NCBI GenBank assembly: GCA_003245575.1
Contig: QKCR01000091.1
Coordinates: forward strand, 1-55,330
Direction of reading: 5' to 3'
Length of the DNA: 55,330 nt
DNA from: Alphaproteobacteria bacterium
GTDB lineage: Bacteria > Pseudomonadota > Alphaproteobacteria > Micavibrionales > Micavibrionaceae
Shown: positions 42,405 to 54,121 of the stretch, piece by piece
Layout of the letters: the number at the start of each line of letters is the position of its first letter
Numbering within the stretch: the first letter of the stretch is position 1
Translations under genes and position numbers: made by a program
Notes under the pieces: generated by a model
Told to the model about the DNA's origin: nothing
Seen by the model: the letters and a program-made list of their open reading frames with translations, nothing else
Databases searched by the model: none

Positions 42405-43175
42405 TTAGAAGTTTAAAGGGCTGTTTGCAAAAGGTGACAAAGGTGCGGGCTTGTCATCCACAAACACGACAGACTTAGGCTTTGCATCTGCTTCAGGCAC
42501 AGGTGCTGGTGCAGCAGAAGGATCACTTGTTGTTGCTGTAGTGCCACTGCTGGCTTTTCCAAAATCTGCCCCTAATTGGGCGTCGCTCTGAATACCGGGA
42601 CCGTACACAACGTCATGAGTGATCATTTCAATCCCATTGATGGAAGTGGACGCGTCAATAATAAGTTGTTCTGTATGAGTTGTGGTAATTGCGCCGTAAT
42701 AGGGGTCTACATAATGTTCCGATTGTGGATCATTAGCTGCATTATAGGTACAGGCGAAACCATCATCCCCAAATATTTCAGGGCTTTCTTCAACCATCTG
42801 CTCCCAACTTGTATATGTGAGTGGGGTATATAATTCATCTTGATGTGGATCAAAATCATATTCATCATAGTCGACGATCTCGGTCACCATGGATGCATAG
42901 TTCTGTCTGAAAGATGCGGCTTTTTGTTGCTGACGTTGCTGCTCTTTTTCAGGAGATTCATCGTCATCATGACCGTTCAGATAAATGCCAAGATAGTCTT
43001 TGTTTGCCCGACCTAGAATTCCGTTGTTGTGAATAAGTGGGTTGAACTTACTGGGATCGTTAATGAGCGCCTCTTCATGAAGGCGGAGCTGTTCATTATG
43101 ATCCAGATCACGATCAACCGAACCTGTATGTTCGATTTGTTTGTGATCGTCATGTCTTTCTTGTGTTTCGCCCAT
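42405..43175 (-). CDS. Acidic protein, function unknown
   Basis: 256 residues from the ATG at 43175; the GTG at 43184 is an alternative. Very acidic, with Asp/Glu/His/Gln clusters ('NGHDDDESPEKEQQRQQQKA', 'VDYDEYDFDPHQDELY'), a Ser/Thr/Ala/Pro tail and no signal peptide, membrane segment or catalytic motif. It looks largely disordered. AT-rich upstream region with TATACT at 43205-43200. Family not recognised. Confidence 0.6.
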   Translation of the reverse strand: MGETQERHDDHKQIEHTGSVDRDLDHNEQLRLHEEALINDPSKFNPLIHNNGILGRANKDYLGIYLNGHDDDESPEKEQQRQQQKAASFRQNYASMVTEIVDYDEYDFDPHQDELYTPLTYTSWEQMVEESPEIFGDDGFACTYNAANDPQSEHYVDPYYGAITTTHTEQLIIDASTSINGIEMITHDVVYGPGIQSDAQLGADFGKASSGTTATTSDPSAAPAPVPEADAKPKSVVFVDDKPAPLSPFANSPLNF

Positions 43176-43199
43176 ATTTTTCACACCATCTAATTGCGT

Positions 43200-43205
43200 A
43201 GTATA
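43200..43205 (-). promoter_or_regulatory. -10 element for the acidic unknown gene
   Basis: TATACT on the minus strand, 24 bases before the ATG; the -35 is weak. Confidence 0.35.
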
Positions 43206-43313
43206 TATATTTGACAGAAAACATTTAATTTTACGTAAATATTTGATTAACAGCCTTGAATTTACCCATATTTGTACGAAAATTGTCCGGGATGAAAAAT
43301 AGCTCGGCTTTTA

Positions 43314-43370
43314 TCACGGGTGGCAGCCATAAGCCCGTCTTGCGCCCTTTTCATTTGGGGCTGAGGGTGC
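43314..43370 (+). promoter_or_regulatory. Structured 5' leader candidate upstream of sucC
   Basis: Two consecutive potential stems: ACGGG/CCCGT (43316-43320 with 43334-43338) and GCGCCC/GGGTGC (43342-43347 with 43365-43370, one G-U pair). They lie 67-120 bases before the sucC ATG in an otherwise AT-rich spacer. Regulatory function is inference. Confidence 0.3.
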
Positions 43371-43437
43371 TATTTCAGAGGGGCAAAATTGCAAGAATGA
43401 TTCTCTTACGAAAATCTGTCTAACCGGAGAAAATAGA

Positions 43438-44643
43438 ATGAATATCCATGAATATCAGGCCAAAGAACTTCTGGCAAAATACGGCGTAGCTGTTCCGAAA
43501 GGAATTCCTGCAATGTCTGTAGAAGAAGCTGCTGCTGCAGTCGATCAACTTCCTGGGCCTTTGTATGTTGTAAAAGCTCAAATCCACGCTGGTGGACGCG
43601 GAGCTGGTAAATTCAAAAATAATCCGGAAGGCAAGGGCGGTGTTCGTCTGTGCAAATCCAAAGACGAAGTAAAAGCTGCTGCCGAAGCCATGATGAATCA
43701 GGTTTTGGTTACCAAGCAAACAGGCCCTGAAGGAAAAGAAGTTCAGCGTCTGTATGTTACTGACGGTGTGGACATCAAAAAAGAATACTACTGCTCAGTC
43801 GTAATGGACCGTGGCACTTCCCGCGTAACTTTCATGGTGTCTACAGAAGGCGGTATGGATATTGAAGAAGTTGCAGAAACACATCCTGAAAAAATTATAA
43901 AAGCTTCCATTGATCCTGCATCCGGAATGTCAGGCTTCCACGCTCGTAAATTGGCGTTTGGCCTAGGACTTGAAGGAGACGCGCTGAAATCAGCTCAAAA
44001 ATTCTTCGTTGCTCTCTATAAAGCATTCACAGAATTGGACTGCTCGATTGTTGAAATTAACCCGATGATCGTAACTGATAAGAACGAAGTTGTCGCCCTT
44101 GATGCGAAAATGAACTTTGATGAAAACGCGTTGTTCCGTCAGAAAGCTGTTGCTGAAATGCGCGACGAAACTGAAGAAGATGAAAACGAACGTGAAGCCA
44201 AAAACTGGGAACTGTCATATGTTCGCATGGACGGAAATATCGGTTGTATGGTGAACGGTGCAGGTCTCGCGATGGCAACCATGGACATCATCAAACACTA
44301 TGGTATGGAGCCGGCCAACTTCCTTGATGTCGGCGGTGGAGCAACGACCGAGCGTGTTACTGCAGCTTTCAAGATCATTCTCTCTGATCCGAAAGTTCGC
44401 GGTGTTCTCGTCAATATCTTCGGCGGTATCATGAAATGTGACATCATTGCCAACGGCATCATTGCTGCTGCAAAAGAAGTATCTCTCTCTGTTCCGTTGG
44501 TTGTTCGTCTTGAAGGAACAAACGTTGAGCTAGGAAAAGATATTCTGAACAACTCGGGACTGCCGATTATTGCAGCTGACAATCTCGATGACGCAGCTCG
44601 TAAAATTGTTGACGCAACCAAAAAAGCTTTGGCTGCTGCCTAG
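43438..44643 (+). CDS. sucC: Succinyl-CoA synthetase beta subunit
   Basis: 401 residues. N-terminal ATP-grasp part beginning [20 protein letters not shown] with '[16 protein letters not shown]' and the C-terminal CoA-ligase part with '[20 protein letters not shown]' and '[20 protein letters not shown]'. It makes succinate and ATP or GTP from succinyl-CoA with SucD. GGAG precedes the ATG, and sucD follows 21 bases later. Confidence 0.98.
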
Positions 44644-44664
44644 TAAAAGAGAAGGAATGAAACA

Positions 44665-45540
44665 ATGTCTGTATTAGTCAATAAAAACACAAAAGTGATC
44701 TGCCAAGGCTTCACCGGAGCGCAAGGCACATTCCACTCAGAGCAAGCCATCGCATACGGTACAAAGATGGTTGGTGGTGTAACACCCGGTAAAGGTGGAA
44801 CCAAACACCTTGATTTGCCGGTGTTCAACACAGTTCTGGAAGCTAAAGCGGAAACAGGATGCAATGCATCTGTTATCTATGTACCGCCACCATTCGCAGC
44901 TGATGCGATTCTGGAAGCAATCGACGCTGAAATCGAGTTGGCTGTCTGTATCACAGAAGGTATTCCTGTTCTGGATATGGTCAAAGTCAAACGCGCATTG
45001 AGCGGTTCAAAAACACGTCTTATCGGACCAAACTGCCCAGGTGTTATTACTCCGGGCGAATGCAAAATCGGGATTATGCCTGGTCACATTCACAAGCGCG
45101 GTAAGGTCGGGATTGTCTCCCGTTCCGGTACGTTGACATACGAAGCTGTTCACCAAACCACAGCTGCTGGCTTGGGGCAGTCCACCTGTATCGGTATTGG
45201 TGGGGATCCGGTAAACGGAACCAACTTCATTGATGCGTTGGATATGTTCTTGAATGACGACGAGACCGAAGCAATCATCATGATCGGTGAGATTGGTGGT
45301 TCTGCAGAAGTTGACGGCGTTGAATTCTACAAAGCACATGCCAAGAAGAAACCGATTGCAGGCTTCATCGCTGGCGCAACCGCTCCAAAAGGTAAACGCA
45401 TGGGCCACGCCGGTGCGATTATTTCCGGTGGTAATGACACGGCAGAAGTTAAAATTGCAGCCATGAAGGCCGCAGGCTTCGTAGTTGCAGAAACACCTGC
45501 GCACTTGGGTGAGGCAGTTTTGAAAGCAATTGCCGCTTAG
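44665..45540 (+). CDS. sucD: Succinyl-CoA synthetase alpha subunit
   Basis: 291 residues. CoA-binding N-terminal domain ('[20 protein letters not shown]') and the ligase domain with the phospho-histidine at about residue 248 in '[16 protein letters not shown]'. Forms the enzyme with SucC. A strong terminator 25 bases downstream separates it from the unknown locus that follows. Confidence 0.98.
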
Positions 45541-45564
45541 GTTTTTAAGTAATATTCTTTATAG

Positions 45565-45589
45565 AAAGCGGGGGATTTCCCCGCTTTTT
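45565..45589 (+). terminator. Intrinsic terminator after sucCD
   Basis: AAAGCGGGG / CCCCGCTTT hairpin followed by T's, 25 bases past the sucD stop. Confidence 0.85.
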
Positions 45590-45661
45590 CTATTTTCCCA
45601 TTGCCTTCCTATGAATTTTTTGCATAACTAAAAGAAAAAATTCGAACAGGTCGAGAACATC

Positions 45662-46495
45662 GTGGCAGATTTTTTGAGACAGGCATGGGAATGCCTTGAG
45701 CATCATGACCATGCCGTGTCATTGCAGGAACGCGCTGAATATATCACCGAACTTCTCCAGTCCGATGGGGTGACGCATGAATATGACCTGGGTGATGAAG
45801 GACGTAAAAATATTAAAAGCCGCTTTGCTGATCGCCGCGTTGTCTTGAACACGGCTGCAATAGATTCTCTATTAAAAGTTCTCTTCGCACGGAGGCAACT
45901 TGTAACTGCAGCCCATACGTTATCCCACATTATTCAGAGCGAAGAGTTCGCACGTGCTTATGTCGGTTTATCAGGGGATATTGTTAAAGAATCGGATGAT
46001 TTAGGGGAAGCTGCTCGACAAATTTTTACACGAGAGGCATATCTGATTGCATACGAATTAAAGAGGAGCATGACTTTTCTGGGGCCTCCTGACCGATATA
46101 ATTCCGGATACCATTTTGATCTTCAAAAACTACACGCAGCCTTTTACAGGATGTGTGATAAATCAGATTTATTTACCTTTGAAGGAGCGCGAGCCGCAGC
46201 ATCACATCCTCTGGGGCTTGTTGCGGAAGAAGTCTCGAACTGTGCGATTGATCTGGCAAATGCACAATTGGAAGCCGCGCAGACTTTGGTTATCGCGGAG
46301 CATTTCTTGAAGGTGGCAAAACCTGAAAATAAGGCGCATGCGCTGTCTTCCGATGTTAAAAAAGGAGTGCATTTGAATGCACAATTTTATCTTAGGTCAT
46401 TAGAGCTTTGGCTGAATGCGGCTCAGAAATTTGAAAGCTATGCTCGGGAAATTTCCCCGGGCGTATACGGGCAAGTCCCTGAATATGAATTTTAA
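45662..46495 (+). CDS. Unknown gene 1 of the suc-locus cluster
   Basis: 277 residues, GTG start; a possible promoter (TTGCCT, 16 bases, CATAAC) lies at 45601-45628. The product is almost wholly helical and cytoplasmic: 'QAWECLEHHDHAVSLQERAE', 'AAIDSLLKVLFARRQLVTAA', 'AAQTLVIAEHFLKVAKPENK'. No catalytic motif, signal peptide or membrane segment. First of five consecutive same-strand genes between sucD and odhA. No family recognised. Confidence 0.65.
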   Translation: MADFLRQAWECLEHHDHAVSLQERAEYITELLQSDGVTHEYDLGDEGRKNIKSRFADRRVVLNTAAIDSLLKVLFARRQLVTAAHTLSHIIQSEEFARAYVGLSGDIVKESDDLGEAARQIFTREAYLIAYELKRSMTFLGPPDRYNSGYHFDLQKLHAAFYRMCDKSDLFTFEGARAAASHPLGLVAEEVSNCAIDLANAQLEAAQTLVIAEHFLKVAKPENKAHALSSDVKKGVHLNAQFYLRSLELWLNAAQKFESYAREISPGVYGQVPEYEF

Positions 46496-46537
46496 CATAA
46501 TTTAAAGTCCTCTATCGCTGAGGAGTGGGAAGTTGAA

Positions 46538-47434
46538 ATGTCAGTGTCACTAGAAGATTGTCTTGATCAACAAATTGTTCTTAGGAACGCATATGACGCG
46601 ATTGTAGGGCATGCAGAAACGCCGCTTCAAATGAAAGCGGCAGAGTTCTGTCTTGGTGAGTTGGCCGCCGCAGAAAACAGAAATGCGTCCTCCGCATCAA
46701 GGGTGCATGCGCTAACTATTTCGTTCTTGAAAAGGGCGCAGGTAAGGACTCGTTTTCATGTGTTTGCGCTGGCAGATTTGGTGCAGTTGGATCATGTGAG
46801 TAAGAAATTTGCACAAAATGAGGCGAGACAAAATCCGGAATCTTTAGTCTATAAAGGATGTCATGATTTGGTGGCGCGGCGGCGGGATCAAATCGTTAAT
46901 ATTCAAGTAAAAATGACAAATTTTGAAAGACTAAGGAAAGGGCTGTCCAAAGTATATCCTGTAATGGAAGATGAGGATAGGGAGCTGAAATGCATGCGTG
47001 CGAGCTTCAAAGTAGCGGCAAATAACTCGAACAATCATATCAAGTTAATCAATCTAAGGGATAAAACCGGAATAGTTGATTGGGATTACATGCTGGGAAA
47101 TAAACCTGCTGTGGCACCTGCGGCTGAATTAGCAGTCATGCAAGATAGACTCCTTCAATTTCTACCGGTAGAGGCAGATGCTGCCCAACAAGAAGCGCAT
47201 CAGGCATTAATATTTCTGGATATGGTTAGGTGCCATCAACATTGGCTAAAAACTGTGGCGGGATCAGCTTTTCCCCAAGAGGAAGTGGCTCAGCTAGCTG
47301 AGCTCGCAGGGTTCTTAGAAAATCATATTCAAATTGGGATGGAGGTATCTGAAGGGCTAACTGCTGATCTGGAAAAAGTAACCTCCATGGGACGGGTAAT
47401 CGCTAACCCGACAAAAATGCCCTCATTTAAGTAA
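46538..47434 (+). CDS. Unknown gene 2 of the suc-locus cluster
   Basis: 298 residues, preceded by GAGGAG and GGGAAG. All-helical and cytoplasmic, with 'DQQIVLRNAYDAIVGHAETP', 'RRRDQIVNIQVKMTNFERLR' and 'HQALIFLDMVRCHQHWLKTV'. No recognised motif. It follows gene 1 by 42 bases and precedes the three-paralogue block by 44. Confidence 0.65.
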   Translation: MSVSLEDCLDQQIVLRNAYDAIVGHAETPLQMKAAEFCLGELAAAENRNASSASRVHALTISFLKRAQVRTRFHVFALADLVQLDHVSKKFAQNEARQNPESLVYKGCHDLVARRRDQIVNIQVKMTNFERLRKGLSKVYPVMEDEDRELKCMRASFKVAANNSNNHIKLINLRDKTGIVDWDYMLGNKPAVAPAAELAVMQDRLLQFLPVEADAAQQEAHQALIFLDMVRCHQHWLKTVAGSAFPQEEVAQLAELAGFLENHIQIGMEVSEGLTADLEKVTSMGRVIANPTKMPSFK

Positions 47435-47478
47435 AAAGCCTCTTTGAAGGCGGTTGTTTTTGGGATATTCTACACTCC

Positions 47479-48042
47479 ATGACAAGTTTAGCTACATTAC
47501 CTGAAGATATTCAAAGTCTCATCGTAAAACTCCCGTTCCGCGTGGGGTATTACATTTCCGCGAGCGATACGACCGGAGGAGATGAAGCTGATGATGCAGA
47601 AATGCGCGCATTGGAAAATATCGTAACATTCTATGTTGAAGATACTTTGAAATCGGAGTTCGCGACGGAAGCAATGCTGGAAATGCTCCGGAAAAGAGAG
47701 CACTGGGAGGCATGGAAGGAGCATATCGAGATCGTTCCTGAAGAATGTTTGAAAATGTCCGAAGCTCTTATCGGATACATCGAATTAAAAGAAGTTGTCG
47801 CCTTCAAAAATAACCTGCTCGAAATAGCAATCTCTGTTGCACAGGCTTATCGCGAATTTGATCATAATGTTTCTACATTTGAAAAATTTTCTACCTATTT
47901 TGCTATTCTGTTGAAAAGAATTCAGGCGCTGATGGCAGGACAGGAAATTCAGTCTACGGATGCAATGCTTAATATTAGCCGTGAAGAAAAAATGGCAATC
48001 GGGCTATTGGCCGACTCATTAGGCATCCAGGTTAAACTCTAA
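47479..48042 (+). CDS. Unknown gene 3 of the suc-locus cluster, paralogue A
   Basis: 187 residues. Features shared with the next two genes: an aromatic/Ser-Asp block 'FRVGYYISASDTTGGDEADD', a W-x-x-W pair ('HWEAWKEH'), and the helix 'EIAISVAQAYREFDH', then a C-terminal helix after 'NISREEKMAIGLLADSLGI'. Helical and soluble. No clear ribosome site. First of the tandem trio. Confidence 0.65.
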   Translation: MTSLATLPEDIQSLIVKLPFRVGYYISASDTTGGDEADDAEMRALENIVTFYVEDTLKSEFATEAMLEMLRKREHWEAWKEHIEIVPEECLKMSEALIGYIELKEVVAFKNNLLEIAISVAQAYREFDHNVSTFEKFSTYFAILLKRIQALMAGQEIQSTDAMLNISREEKMAIGLLADSLGIQVKL

Positions 48043-48063
48043 TCAATTTATCGCGAGGACAGC

Positions 48064-48609
48064 ATGTCGGGCTTGCAAAGATTTGTTCCAAAAGAGCAGG
48101 AATTACTCTCTGGGATTTTATACCGTATCGGGTATTGGATTTCCCATGTTGATGATACGGATGAGGGAGATGAATCAGAGCAAATCGAACATCGCCAGTT
48201 AATGGGGTCGTTACAAAAAATATCTAAAGCAGCCAAAGCAGGTGCGCTTGTAAACGAAATGGCCTCGGAGTCTCTTCGGCAAGAGCAAAGCTGGGGCCGC
48301 TGGCAAGATATGAATGATGCCATTCTCGATGACGTATCATTTGCGGCAACCTTGGTAAAAGGGCAGGGTACGCCTGAGGAATATAATGTGTTCTCGAAGG
48401 CGTGTATGATGATTGCAACATCTGTTGCACACGCTTTCCGGGAAGAGCCGGACAATATGCCTGAAAATGACGGGTATTTCTCGTGGCTGGCTGAAAAGGC
48501 GAATAATCTGGTTATGTCCCTGACAGATAAAGAGGGGATGAAAGATCTTAATGTTTCTCCCGAAGAAGATAATGCACTGCATGCGCTATGGGACATTCTT
48601 AGAAAATGA
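48064..48609 (+). CDS. Unknown gene 4 of the suc-locus cluster, paralogue B
   Basis: 181 residues, AGGA six bases before the ATG. It has the family features 'YRIGYWISHVDDTDEGDESE', 'SWGRWQDMN' and 'MIATSVAHAFREEPDN', ending 'VSPEEDNALHALWDIL'. Clearly homologous to genes 3 and 5. Its stop overlaps the start of gene 5. Confidence 0.7.
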   Translation: MSGLQRFVPKEQELLSGILYRIGYWISHVDDTDEGDESEQIEHRQLMGSLQKISKAAKAGALVNEMASESLRQEQSWGRWQDMNDAILDDVSFAATLVKGQGTPEEYNVFSKACMMIATSVAHAFREEPDNMPENDGYFSWLAEKANNLVMSLTDKEGMKDLNVSPEEDNALHALWDILRK

Positions 48610-49124
48610 CCTTGCCGCTTAATCCGAAAGAAAAACAGGAACTGGCGCGCATTATGTTGCGATGTGCTATGTGGGTTTCTATCTCGGATGAGGCCGGAGG
48701 TAACTCCTCTCAAAGTGCAGAAGAGCGTGTTTTGAAACGTCGTATTCAGACGCTCTATAAATCAGCAAGAACAGGAACAGATGAAAGGGAAATTCTGGGG
48801 GTTATCCTCTCGAATACCCAATATTGGCGGGCATGGTGTGAAGATTTGATTTCCCTGATGCCCGAGATTAGGTCAGTCTCCCCAAGATTTCCTATCCCGA
48901 TGCGAAAAATTGCCTTGGGGTTGGCGACAGATGTGGCTACCGCTTTTGAGGAGCGTTCGGCTTTATCATCCTTCTTAATGCGCACAGGTTTGCGGTTTAA
49001 ATCCATCTTTTCAAAGTCAGATTCCTTTCTCTCCCCTGAGGAGAGAGCAAGCATTTCCGCCAGTGAAATGGCAGCTTTGAAGGAGTTAGCTCTGGCTCTG
49101 GAAATATCGGATTTTCATATTTAG
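48606..49124 (+). CDS. Unknown gene 5 of the suc-locus cluster, paralogue C
   Basis: 172 residues, overlapping gene 4 by four bases (ATGA). Family features: 'LRCAMWVSISDEAGGNSSQS', 'YWRAWCEDL' and 'GLATDVATAFEERSA', ending 'ISASEMAALKELALALEI'. The first block's position is shifted (A-M-W for G-Y-W), so this copy is the most diverged. odhA starts 147 bases later. Confidence 0.7.
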   Translation: MTLPLNPKEKQELARIMLRCAMWVSISDEAGGNSSQSAEERVLKRRIQTLYKSARTGTDEREILGVILSNTQYWRAWCEDLISLMPEIRSVSPRFPIPMRKIALGLATDVATAFEERSALSSFLMRTGLRFKSIFSKSDSFLSPEERASISASEMAALKELALALEISDFHI

Positions 49125-49271
49125 GAATCCCTCTTGTATCTGGGACAATTTAACCCAAATTAACCTGAGAATTCTGAGTATTTTTTCTCAAACGGGGCTG
49201 TATTCCCGTATGACAAAAGTGCTAATATCTCCAACCAATTCATCCGTTGATAACAATTTAGAGAACAAGAC

Positions 49272-52184
49272 ATGTCGAGCGCATCAAATCTCAAAACTAT
49301 TCTTACAGGCGTGAATGCCGAATATATTGCAAACTTATACCGAGAATACCTTAAATCTCCGATGTCGGTAGACTCAAGCTGGCAAGCAGTCTTTGCTGAA
49401 ATGCAGGATGATGAAGCTGCACTCCTCAAACAAATGGTAGGGGCAAGTTGGGGCGAAGGCGAATATCGTGCGCCATCTGTTCCATTCGGACATATGAACG
49501 CCGATGCCGATCAAATTACAACCTCGCACGCACCGGCAAATCAGTATGCACGCAGAAGTGCTGGACGTGATGGTTTAAACCAAAGCGAGATTGAACAGGC
49601 AACGAGAGACTCGATCGCGGCACTTATGATGATCCGCGCATATCGTGCCATGGGTCACTTTGCTGCTGATCTGGACCCTCTGGGACTGAAATCATCGGAA
49701 TATCACAAGGAACTTGATCCAAGCTTCTATGGATTTGGCCCGCAAGATGTTAACCGCAAGATTTATATCGGCGGTGTTCTGGGGATGGATTACGCAACCA
49801 TCAAGGAAATCCGTGATGCCTTGCATGGTATTTACTGCGGTAAAATCGGTGTGGAGTTCCTGCACTCAGTTTCTCCTGAAGAAAAAAGCTGGATTCAACA
49901 ACGTATCGAGGCAACTCGTAACCACACATCCTTTACACACGAAGAAAAACAACGTTTCTTCGACCATTTGGTTGCTGCAGAAGGCCTAGAGCGGTTTATT
50001 CATACCAAACATGTTGGAACAAAACGTTTCGGGGTAGATGGTGGTGAGAGCTTTATTGCATCTCTTGAGGAAACAATTTTCCGCTGTGGTGAACTTGGAT
50101 GTGAAGAAGTTGTTCTTGGGATGGCGCACCGTGGCCGTCTGAACGTTTTGACCAATGTGGTTGGTAAACCATATACGGCATTGTTTGCTGAGTTTCAGGG
50201 TATGTCTTCCAATCCTGAAGACATTTTGGGAACAGGTGACGTAAAATATCACTTGGGCTACACCAACGATAAAAAATATGGTGAAAACACTGTTCACTTA
50301 ACATTGACTGCCAACCCGTCCCACTTGGAGGCGGTTAATCCTGTGGCAATCGGTCGTACACGCGCTAAGCAATTCCAGCGCGGGGACTCCGAGCGCAACA
50401 AAGTTGTCCCGATTTTGATCCATGGTGACGCGGCATTTATTGGTCAGGGTGTTGTTGCCGAGACACTGATTATGTCAGAATTGCACGGATACCGTGTAGG
50501 TGGAACGATCCACATCGTGATTAACAACCAGATCGGCTTTACCACAATGCCGAAATACTCACGTTCTGGACCTTATTGTACTGATATGGCGAAAATCCTA
50601 TCGGCGCCGATTTTCCACGTTAACGGAGATGACGTTGAGGCCGTGATCCATGTATCCCGTCTTGCTGCGGAATTCCGTCAGACCTTCAAGAAAGACGTGG
50701 TGATAGACATTTTCTGCTACCGTCGTTATGGGCACAACGAGGGAGATGAGCCTTCCTTTACCCAGCCTCTGATGTACAAAAAGATCAAGACGCTGGATAA
50801 CGTTCGTGAAATTTATGGTCGCACATTGGTCAGTCAAAAAGTCCTAAGTGAAGATGAAACCAATGCCGTTGTTCTGAGCTTCCAGAAAAAGCTTGATGAG
50901 GCATTTGAAGCAACCAAGAGCTTCAAGCCGAATAAGGCAGATTATCTGGAAGGCTATTGGGCAGGCTTGCGTGTAGCGCATGGTGATGCGCGCCGAGGAG
51001 AAACCGGAATTTCGAAAGAAAAGTTCGAGCATCTTGGAAGAGTTTTGACCAGCTATCCGTCCGATTTTAACATCAATCCGAAAATTGCCCGTCAGCTTGA
51101 GCAAAAAGCGGACATGTTCAAAACAGGGGAAGGATTTGATTGGGCAACTGCTGAAGCCTTGGCTTTCGGGTCCTTGCTGGATGAGGGGCATCATGTGCGC
51201 CTGTCCGGAGAAGATGTTGGTCGGGGAACATTCTCCCACCGCCATGCCATTATGTACGATCAGGAAAACGAGAACAAATACTTACCTTTGCGCAATATAT
51301 CTGAAAATCAGGCAGTCTTTGAAGTTCACGATAGTCCGCTCTCAGAATTTGCTGTTCTTGGATTTGAACTCGGGTATTCATGGGCTGAGCCAAAAGCACT
51401 TGTCATTTGGGAAGCGCAGTTCGGTGACTTCGTCAACGGTGCGCAGATCATCATTGATCAGTTCTTGGCGGCATCTGAAAGCAAATGGTTGCGTATGTCG
51501 GGTCTTGTAATGCTCTTGCCGCATGGATTTGAAGGGCAGGGGCCTGAACACTCATCAGCCCGTCTTGAACGCTTCTTGCAACTCTGCGCAGAAGAAAACA
51601 TGCAGGTCACCAATATCACGACCCCTGCAAACTACTTCCACGCATTGCGTCGTCAGCTTCACCGCGACTTCCGTAAGCCGCTTATTAATATGGCGCCTAA
51701 GTCATTGCTGCGTCATAAACTGGCAGTGTCTAAAGCTGAATTGTTCACGGAGCAGAGCACATTCCACCGTGTTCTGTGGGATGACCACCGCGCCGAACTG
51801 AAACAAGGCAAAGACGTAAAACGTATCGTTCTGTGTAGCGGTAAGGTCTACTATGACTTGATGGAAGAGCGCAATAAGCGGGAAATCAAGGATGTCCATA
51901 TCCTGCGTTTGGAACAAATTTATCCGTTCCCTGACAAAGTATTGGAAGAAGAGCTGGCCCAATATCCGAATGCAGACGTGGTATGGTGTCAGGAAGAACC
52001 TAAAAACCAGGGTGCTTGGTTCTTCGTCAACCCAATGATCGAAGATGTTTTGACAGCCATTAAGCATAAGGCTGGTCGTCCGAAATATGCAGGCCGCATC
52101 GCAACGGCAGCACCTGCAACGGGCTACGCTAAACGTCACGCGATGGAGCAAGCAAGGCTGGTTGATGAAGCCATTACTTTGTAA
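49272..52184 (+). CDS. sucA: 2-oxoglutarate dehydrogenase E1 component
   Basis: 970 residues, the usual size for SucA/OdhA. 'GMAHRGRLNVLTNVVGKPYT' (about 285), the thiamine-diphosphate motif 'GDAAFIGQG' (about 385) ending in NNQIGFTT, 'RYGHNEGDEPSFTQPLMYKK' and the C-terminal 'CQEEPKNQGAWFFVNPMIED' are present. It decarboxylates 2-oxoglutarate in the TCA cycle, passing succinyl to the E2 enzyme. sucB and lpd, commonly next, are absent: a terminator and mucR follow. Confidence 0.97.
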   Translation: MSSASNLKTILTGVNAEYIANLYREYLKSPMSVDSSWQAVFAEMQDDEAALLKQMVGASWGEGEYRAPSVPFGHMNADADQITTSHAPANQYARRSAGRDGLNQSEIEQATRDSIAALMMIRAYRAMGHFAADLDPLGLKSSEYHKELDPSFYGFGPQDVNRKIYIGGVLGMDYATIKEIRDALHGIYCGKIGVEFLHSVSPEEKSWIQQRIEATRNHTSFTHEEKQRFFDHLVAAEGLERFIHTKHVGTKRFGVDGGESFIASLEETIFRCGELGCEEVVLGMAHRGRLNVLTNVVGKPYTALFAEFQGMSSNPEDILGTGDVKYHLGYTNDKKYGENTVHLTLTANPSHLEAVNPVAIGRTRAKQFQRGDSERNKVVPILIHGDAAFIGQGVVAETLIMSELHGYRVGGTIHIVINNQIGFTTMPKYSRSGPYCTDMAKILSAPIFHVNGDDVEAVIHVSRLAAEFRQTFKKDVVIDIFCYRRYGHNEGDEPSFTQPLMYKKIKTLDNVREIYGRTLVSQKVLSEDETNAVVLSFQKKLDEAFEATKSFKPNKADYLEGYWAGLRVAHGDARRGETGISKEKFEHLGRVLTSYPSDFNINPKIARQLEQKADMFKTGEGFDWATAEALAFGSLLDEGHHVRLSGEDVGRGTFSHRHAIMYDQENENKYLPLRNISENQAVFEVHDSPLSEFAVLGFELGYSWAEPKALVIWEAQFGDFVNGAQIIIDQFLAASESKWLRMSGLVMLLPHGFEGQGPEHSSARLERFLQLCAEENMQVTNITTPANYFHALRRQLHRDFRKPLINMAPKSLLRHKLAVSKAELFTEQSTFHRVLWDDHRAELKQGKDVKRIVLCSGKVYYDLMEERNKREIKDVHILRLEQIYPFPDKVLEEELAQYPNADVVWCQEEPKNQGAWFFVNPMIEDVLTAIKHKAGRPKYAGRIATAAPATGYAKRHAMEQARLVDEAITL

Positions 52185-52250: not shown

Positions 52251-52685
52251 TTAGCCGCGCTTCGCTGTAGTCTTTGTGGCGGCTGTACCGAGGCCAATAT
52301 CTTTTGCCAATTTACTGCGTTGTTTGGTGTAGTTGGGAGCAACCATGGGATAATCATGCGGCAATCCCCAACGTTCCTTATATTGCTCGGGCGTCATATC
52401 ATAGGCAGTTTTTAGGTGACGTTTCAGCATCTTGAGTTTTTTACCGTCCTCTAGGCAAACAATATAATCAGGCATAACTGATTTACGGATGGGAACGGCA
52501 GGTTGTGGACGTTCTCCGATTGATGTTGCTGCCTTTGTTTCGCTGCCCAAAGTAGATAGGGTGCGATAGATGCGCTCGATCAGGGCAGGGATTTCAGGGG
52601 CGGCAACTGTGTTGTGCGAGAGGTGGGATGCCACAATCTCGGCAGTATAAGAAAGTAATTCTGAATGTTTATTATTGTCTGCCAT
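52251..52685 (-). CDS. mucR: MucR/Ros-family transcriptional regulator
   Basis: 144 residues. The C-terminal zinc-finger-like region contains 'YIVCLEDGKKLKMLKRHLKT', then 'MTPEQYKERWGLPHDYPMVA' and 'PNYTKQRSKLAKDIGLG', the full MucR signature. The single Cys after Y-I-V fits the CLEDGK variant seen in many MucR proteins. MucR proteins bind AT-rich DNA and often repress flagellar or surface-polysaccharide genes. The AT-rich upstream gap (52686-52777) could be its own target. Confidence 0.93.
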   Translation of the reverse strand: MADNNKHSELLSYTAEIVASHLSHNTVAAPEIPALIERIYRTLSTLGSETKAATSIGERPQPAVPIRKSVMPDYIVCLEDGKKLKMLKRHLKTAYDMTPEQYKERWGLPHDYPMVAPNYTKQRSKLAKDIGLGTAATKTTAKRG

Positions 52686-53599: not shown

Positions 53600-54121
53600 T
53601 TACGACAGACCGACGGTCGGCATCAGAGCAAGCGCAAGCTGATCTTCATCATGGGTCTTTTCGGAAGCCAGCATCATAAATGCAGGATAATGCATATCAC
53701 ATTCTTCCATAGTGATTTGGATCAGATCAGCCAGCTGGTCAACAATTTCCGGTCCAACAGACAAACCACGCAACATTTGCGTATAACGGAAACATGGGAT
53801 CATGCTCTCGACTGAGAGATGAAAATGCCCAAGCCATAATTGTGTATTGATCTCGTTAATGGTTCGACAGGCTTTCTCATAATGGAAATCTGCCAATCGA
53901 ACATCATACTCGGCGCAAAACTGGATAACTTCCTGAGAATCGTTCCACAAGAACATCATGCGATAAATTCCGTGCTTCCCTTGAAGTTCAAGGTACAATT
54001 CATCCCTGTTCATACGGGAATAGGTCCAGTTCTGACGAACCAGAATATCCTCAACTCCGTCCAAAGGGTTGGAATATTCTTCCATATAATTGTCCTCAAG
54101 GGCTTGGTTGGATAACGTCAT
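53600..54121 (-). CDS. YbjN-domain protein
   Basis: 173 residues. YbjN pattern: 'VEDILVRQNWTYSRMNRDEL' near the start, 'LWLGHFHLSVESMIPCFRYT' in the middle, and the acidic end with 'MEECDMHYPAFMMLASEK'. Soluble, no signal peptide. YbjN proteins in other bacteria affect stress or motility traits, but no catalytic role is established. Between ubiK and proC. Confidence 0.8.
   Translation of the reverse strand: MTLSNQALEDNYMEEYSNPLDGVEDILVRQNWTYSRMNRDELYLELQGKHGIYRMMFLWNDSQEVIQFCAEYDVRLADFHYEKACRTINEINTQLWLGHFHLSVESMIPCFRYTQMLRGLSVGPEIVDQLADLIQITMEECDMHYPAFMMLASEKTHDEDQLALALMPTVGLS

Follow-up and report, generated by a model that had tools for sequence, protein, structure and literature searches.

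The alphaproteobacterial sucCD-sucAB operons have a core gene order of sucC-sucD-sucA, which brings together the genes for succinyl-CoA synthetase and the E1 component of 2-oxoglutarate dehydrogenase (E1o; SucA, also OdhA). In Actinobacteria, 2-oxoglutarate dehydrogenase is the target of OdhI/GarA, FHA-domain inhibitors that are themselves controlled by Ser/Thr kinases. A further point of comparison is TerB, whose helical domain contains a pair of acidic helix-turn motifs; in TerB-like proteins, the carboxylates have been proposed to constitute a divalent-metal site. Here, we analyze a suc locus from an alphaproteobacterium assigned to Micavibrionaceae, contained in a window (i.e., the whole stretch of DNA analyzed) of 55,330 nucleotides. 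The locus displays the same core order, to which the operons of the window's taxonomic family add one to three copies of genes encoding a protein family of ~180 aa, defined in the present analysis from genes 3-5 and termed T, whereas those of the window's genus additionally feature fast-evolving genes (X genes) behind a terminator.

Architecture of the sucD-sucA interval

The original prediction, made from the window alone, held that the interval from sucD to sucA contains five genes on the same strand, separated from sucCD by a terminator. All five open reading frames are present on the + strand (Table 1), downstream of a hairpin followed by a T-tract. The finer details of the prediction were also borne out: genes 4 and 5 overlap as ATGA at 48606-48609, with the start of gene 5 lying over the stop of gene 4, and sucA starts 147 bases past gene 5. 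No comparable + strand terminator was found in the window between this hairpin and sucA, and an Rfam search of positions 43000-49500 returned no match.

Table 1. Features of the suc locus in the window
Feature	Position	Strand	Remarks
sucD (succinyl-CoA synthetase alpha)	44665..45540	+	upstream anchor; 76-97% identity to relatives' sucD
intrinsic terminator 3′ of sucD	45563..45589	+	12-pair stem, T-rich tail
gene 1 (X1), ~280 aa, fast-evolving, genus-level	45662..46495	+	GTG start; remote homologs in the same slot of congeners
gene 2 (X2), ~300 aa, fast-evolving predicted long-helix bundle	46538..47434	+	same slot in 5 congeneric genomes, including the window's
gene 3 (T, class B), 187 aa, predicted all-helical	47479..48042	+	
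gene 4 (T, class A), 181 aa, paralog of gene 3	48064..48609	+	
gene 5 (T, divergent genus-level third copy, class B side of tree), 172 aa	48606..49124	+	
sucA/odhA (2-oxoglutarate dehydrogenase E1)	49272..52184	+	downstream anchor

Several other genes surround this interval. On the - strand, 42405-43184 encodes a 259 aa protein, divergent from sucC and without a Pfam match, which shows just 26-37% identity in congeners whose SucC is more than 90% identical, making it another fast-evolving neighbor at the suc locus. On the 3′ side of sucA, a ROS/MucR regulator (52251-52685, - strand; E 2e-50) and a YbjN-family protein (53600-54121, - strand; E 5e-15) keep their places in several congeners. Across the family, numerous unrelated genes have been inserted, on either strand, into the sucC-sucD and sucD-sucA intervals (loci L040, L041, L045, L046, L047, L050, L052, L055, L062, L063 and L033); read by eye, these include cysK, serine acetyltransferase, ROK-kinase-like, DedA-like and periplasmic solute-binding-like genes, which is unusual in such a core operon.

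T, a family of predicted all-helical proteins

A whole-genome search recovered the predicted paralogy of genes 3-5 beyond chance, in which gene 3 as query retrieved gene 4 (E=8e-11) as well as gene 5 (E=7e-5). The T profile matches genes 3, 4 and 5 (8.5e-66, 8.1e-59 and 2.9e-39, respectively), and a version lacking the sequences labelled third-of-three still retrieved gene 5 (E=3e-19) and reported neither gene 1 nor gene 2. These two genes are unrelated to genes 3-5 in profile-profile comparisons (HHalign of X1 or X2 versus T, probability 0.2-0.5%). The motifs named in the original prediction are conserved in 120 T sequences, where, in gene 3 numbering, they correspond to S27, D/E30, W76-x-x-W79, V120-A121-x-A123 and E126. 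At predicted helix ends, the four acidic residues D/E30, E41, E126 and E170 are conserved at 99-100% in both of the T classes described below: D or E occupies position 30 in 99% of the sequences and E126 likewise occurs in 99%, and E41 and E170 are found in 100%. S167 is likewise seen in 99%, and W76 and W79 in 95-96%. Since S167-x-x-E170 sits at a helix start and could be a simple capping box, we treat a ligand site formed by these residues as a conditional prediction.

The AlphaFold model of T is a confident all-helical structure (pLDDT 82, pTM 0.81). None of genes 1-5 has a match above noise in Pfam, NCBIfam, PHROGs or PADLOC, in line with the original description of the five as unknown genes. 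For T, the best PDB match by sequence profile has E 0.17, and the best Foldseek matches have E 0.47 (PDB) and E 0.23 (viral models). The best VIA match of T, to the non-haem globin of the stressosome (3zta) at Z 5.1, is followed by haemoglobins and was treated as noise. Longer open frames suggestive of T domain fusions turned out to be upstream read-through, with no clear second domain. We found no literature on the locus, and the main text of the transcriptome study of Micavibrio aeruginosavorus ARL-13 (PMC3189940) does not mention sucA, succinyl-CoA or oxoglutarate. By these searches, T is a new protein family without recognizable relatives.

T is widespread in one taxonomic family

Of the 104 genomes in the GTDB-style family to which the window belongs, 96 carry T. 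M. aeruginosavorus ARL-13 is a member of this family, and the genome taken as that strain shows the layout sucD-T-T-sucA, its two T genes lying at about 646.4-647.7 kb of the chromosome. Many carriers are named Micavibrio, a genus that the local NCBI taxonomy places in Bdellovibrionota, yet many carrier records are titled Alphaproteobacteria bacterium. In a sample of the class (385 genomes), T was found in four genomes only, all members of the window's family, and in a sample of the phylum (398 genomes), only in the window's own genome. Near-complete members of the family without T exist (G020, G011 and G027), so that T is not an obligate subunit of the enzyme; as congeners of the first two, G457 and G459, carry T, it was probably lost more than once.

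Outside this family, T occurs in two genomes from another family of the same order (G510 and G512), where both copies sit away from sucA and may represent horizontal transfers. These are lone T genes (L169 and L170), the one placed in the tree being of class A; by eye, a HigA-like antitoxin gene lies beside one and a hybrid histidine kinase near the other. In two order-mates outside the family (L183 and L185), sucD and sucA are adjacent, with no T. No relatives of T were found in phages and viral contigs; for pattern searches, T pattern A1 proved too divergent, and the usable pattern A2 matched genome contigs and no viral contig.

T is a conserved component of the suc operon

Among 61 distinct T loci, sucD lies upstream on the same strand in 51 and sucA downstream on the same strand in 48, with sucA within 300 bp of T in 43 of the latter (median 102 bp). 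Terminators are present in 2 of these 43 T-sucA gaps and, where sucD and T are no more than 200 bp apart, in 2 of 25 gaps. A position directly before sucA and/or after sucD, on the same strand and with no terminator before sucA, is near-universal for T in the family, and the usual order is sucC-sucD-T-T-sucA, often with other genes inserted in between. We infer this order to be that of the ancestral operon. The few T copies adjoining unrelated genes, such as mutL, asnB, transketolase and an rRNA/tRNA methyltransferase (sequences read by eye), have neighbors with no theme in common.

The expectation of linkage conserved in related genomes held for genes 3-5, which are tied to sucD/sucA family-wide. 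The conception of all five genes as a single inserted unit is not supported, as genes 3-5 are a family-wide component of the operon to which genes 1-2 are later genus-level additions.

Rapid evolution and genus-level range of genes 1 and 2

Genes 1 and 2 have no ortholog in most relatives. In congeners, the slot is taken up by a single same-strand ORF or by two, with lengths of 270-320 aa. Six of these group with gene 2 (group X2); gene 1 has remote homologs at this site in three further congeners, with which it makes up group X1 (HHalign E 5e-5 over 228 columns, probability 67%). Profile comparison recovered no relation between X1 and X2. The X2 profile finds only five genomes of the window's genus (the window's included) and one marginal match, and gene 1 by itself had no match in genome contigs. 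The X genes evolve far faster than their neighbors: their identity between congeners is ~25%, as against 83-91% for the SucA of these congeners relative to that of the window. The window and three congeners (L033, L034 and L037) have a hairpin or terminator after sucD and X genes between it and T, and a hairpin at the 3′ end of sucD is rare where T directly follows sucD. Genes 1-2 are later, fast-evolving insertions at the level of the genus, lodged between the sucD terminator and T.

The gene 2 model is a long-helix bundle (pLDDT 84.6, pTM 0.83) with weak likeness to many bundles, and the X2 alignment features invariant columns at M1, L15, R48, R133, L136, E146 and E212. We rejected a ferritin-like/diiron bundle for this protein, there being no conserved ExxH and the best VIA match (bacterioferritin, Z 9.8) falling within the noise range for bundles.

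Two paralogous classes of T under strong selection

In a tree of 120 T sequences, 50 tips form class A (gene 4 type) and 70 form class B (gene 3 type together with gene 5); the split has a support of 0.996 and falls on the longest internal branch between genes 3 and 4. Both classes are present in 41 of the 61 T loci, and the tree portrays A and B as two ancient paralogous classes, with gene 5 an extra, longer-branched and mainly genus-level copy. Three genomes (G032, G036 and G503) have their A and B genes on separate contigs or at a distance from each other and retain both even though one copy has left the locus, which favors a joint function of the two classes. Selection on T is strong (dN/dS 0.03-0.12): simple counting estimates for one genome pair (G005/G002) gave 0.031, 0.082 and 0.116 for T1, T2 and T3, beside 0.027 for sucA, 0.043 for sucC and 0.177 for the X2 gene.

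Functional predictions and alternatives

No match to a known family was found and the linkage of genes 3-5 is strongly conserved, so the two outcomes that the original prediction had named as contrary to it did not materialize; a regulatory or structural role for the genes is possible. Our preferred reading, held tentatively and with somewhat less than even confidence, is that T serves the 2-oxoglutarate dehydrogenase/succinyl-CoA synthetase step, with which it would be co-expressed, as an accessory component, probably a heteromeric and regulatory one. Genes 3-5 would encode lineage-specific small soluble helical proteins as accessory products of the suc operon, with classes A and B potentially acting together as a heteromer or a division-of-labor pair. 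Their carboxylates could make up a site for a ligand or, along the lines proposed for TerB-like proteins, for a divalent metal, and the A/B pair might bind or modulate E1o (SucA) and/or succinyl-CoA synthetase. The pair would thereby match flux through the 2-oxoglutarate/succinyl-CoA node to the expression of the operon. Genes 1-2 may share a transcript with T and sucA and would not be needed for the T system. The operon position, the ancient paralogous pair, the constraint on the sequences, the carboxylates, the clade restriction and the occasional loss are observations; the joint action of A and B and their role at this enzymatic step are what we infer. Operon membership alone is no proof of a physical or regulatory link to SucA, and neither fold nor sequence matches gave independent support for T as a regulator.

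The main competing explanation, which we regard as quite possible if somewhat doubtful, is that T has its own growth or stress function unrelated to 2-oxoglutarate metabolism and that the suc operon only supplies strong growth-phase expression. The locus does accept unrelated genes: sucC and sucD have ORFs on either strand between them, and in L040/L041, genes read by eye as cysK, serine acetyltransferase and ROK-kinase-like separate T from sucA; T copies elsewhere adjoin varied genes, and some lineages without T still keep sucA. However, other insertions vary, whereas T is the sole non-suc component kept at this locus across ~35 genera, and in the three genomes with a moved A or B copy, the other copy still adjoins sucD, which speaks against this explanation.

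It is also conceivable, though unlikely, that T belongs to the TerB-like helical fold (PF05099/COG3793) as a divergent offshoot, with carboxylates binding a divalent metal and a function in metal or envelope-stress handling. A motif reading of T pointed to TerB as the only sequence lead, which stays below threshold. In a profile-profile comparison with a TerB profile built from alphaproteobacterial sequences, T aligned weakly, in register over most of the domain, at an HHalign score of 23-24; this exceeds all 100 column-shuffles (at most 20.2) and all 26 unrelated families (at most 17.5), but the probability is just 6-16%. The four near-invariant acidic positions of T occur in the same order as the two D...E motifs of TerB, but T has an insert of ~36 residues at the second motif. 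Moreover, Pfam TerB was not among the hmmscan matches listed for genes 1-5 and 66 T members, none of which passes that model at its gathering score, and TerB structures were absent from the listed Foldseek and VIA matches to T. The genomic context also differs, and a TerB search of the window's genome gave, among the matches listed, only other contigs.

A recent insertion of genes 1-5 as one module of mobile or phage origin is very improbable and, for T, strongly disfavored: unknown genes do stand inside a housekeeping locus, and genes 1-2 are fast-evolving and genus-restricted, but T is family-wide and ancient with no relatives in phages and viral contigs, gene 2 has none in plasmids, and no PHROGs match rises above noise.

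The accessory reading would make T comparable to OdhI/GarA as a small protein dedicated to the same enzymatic node in one lineage, an analogy that would extend to the role alone, T being predicted to be all-helical, with no FHA match, and formed of ancient paralogs within the suc operon itself. Its boldest form, which we consider rather improbable, posits that T-A and T-B constitute a dedicated heteromer that, in a lineage of predatory alphaproteobacteria, regulates 2-oxoglutarate dehydrogenase in response to a metal or ligand and switches TCA flux between the non-growing attack phase and growth on prey, as a proteobacterial counterpart to OdhI/GarA with a different fold. If T regulates or scaffolds the enzyme, this node of central metabolism would have a new control mechanism, perhaps coupled to the switch of the predators between non-growing and growing states. 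T marks the succinyl-CoA/2-oxoglutarate step in essentially the whole family, including the Micavibrio predators, and, regardless of its role, is a new family of proteins whose synteny can serve as a diagnostic marker of this clade.
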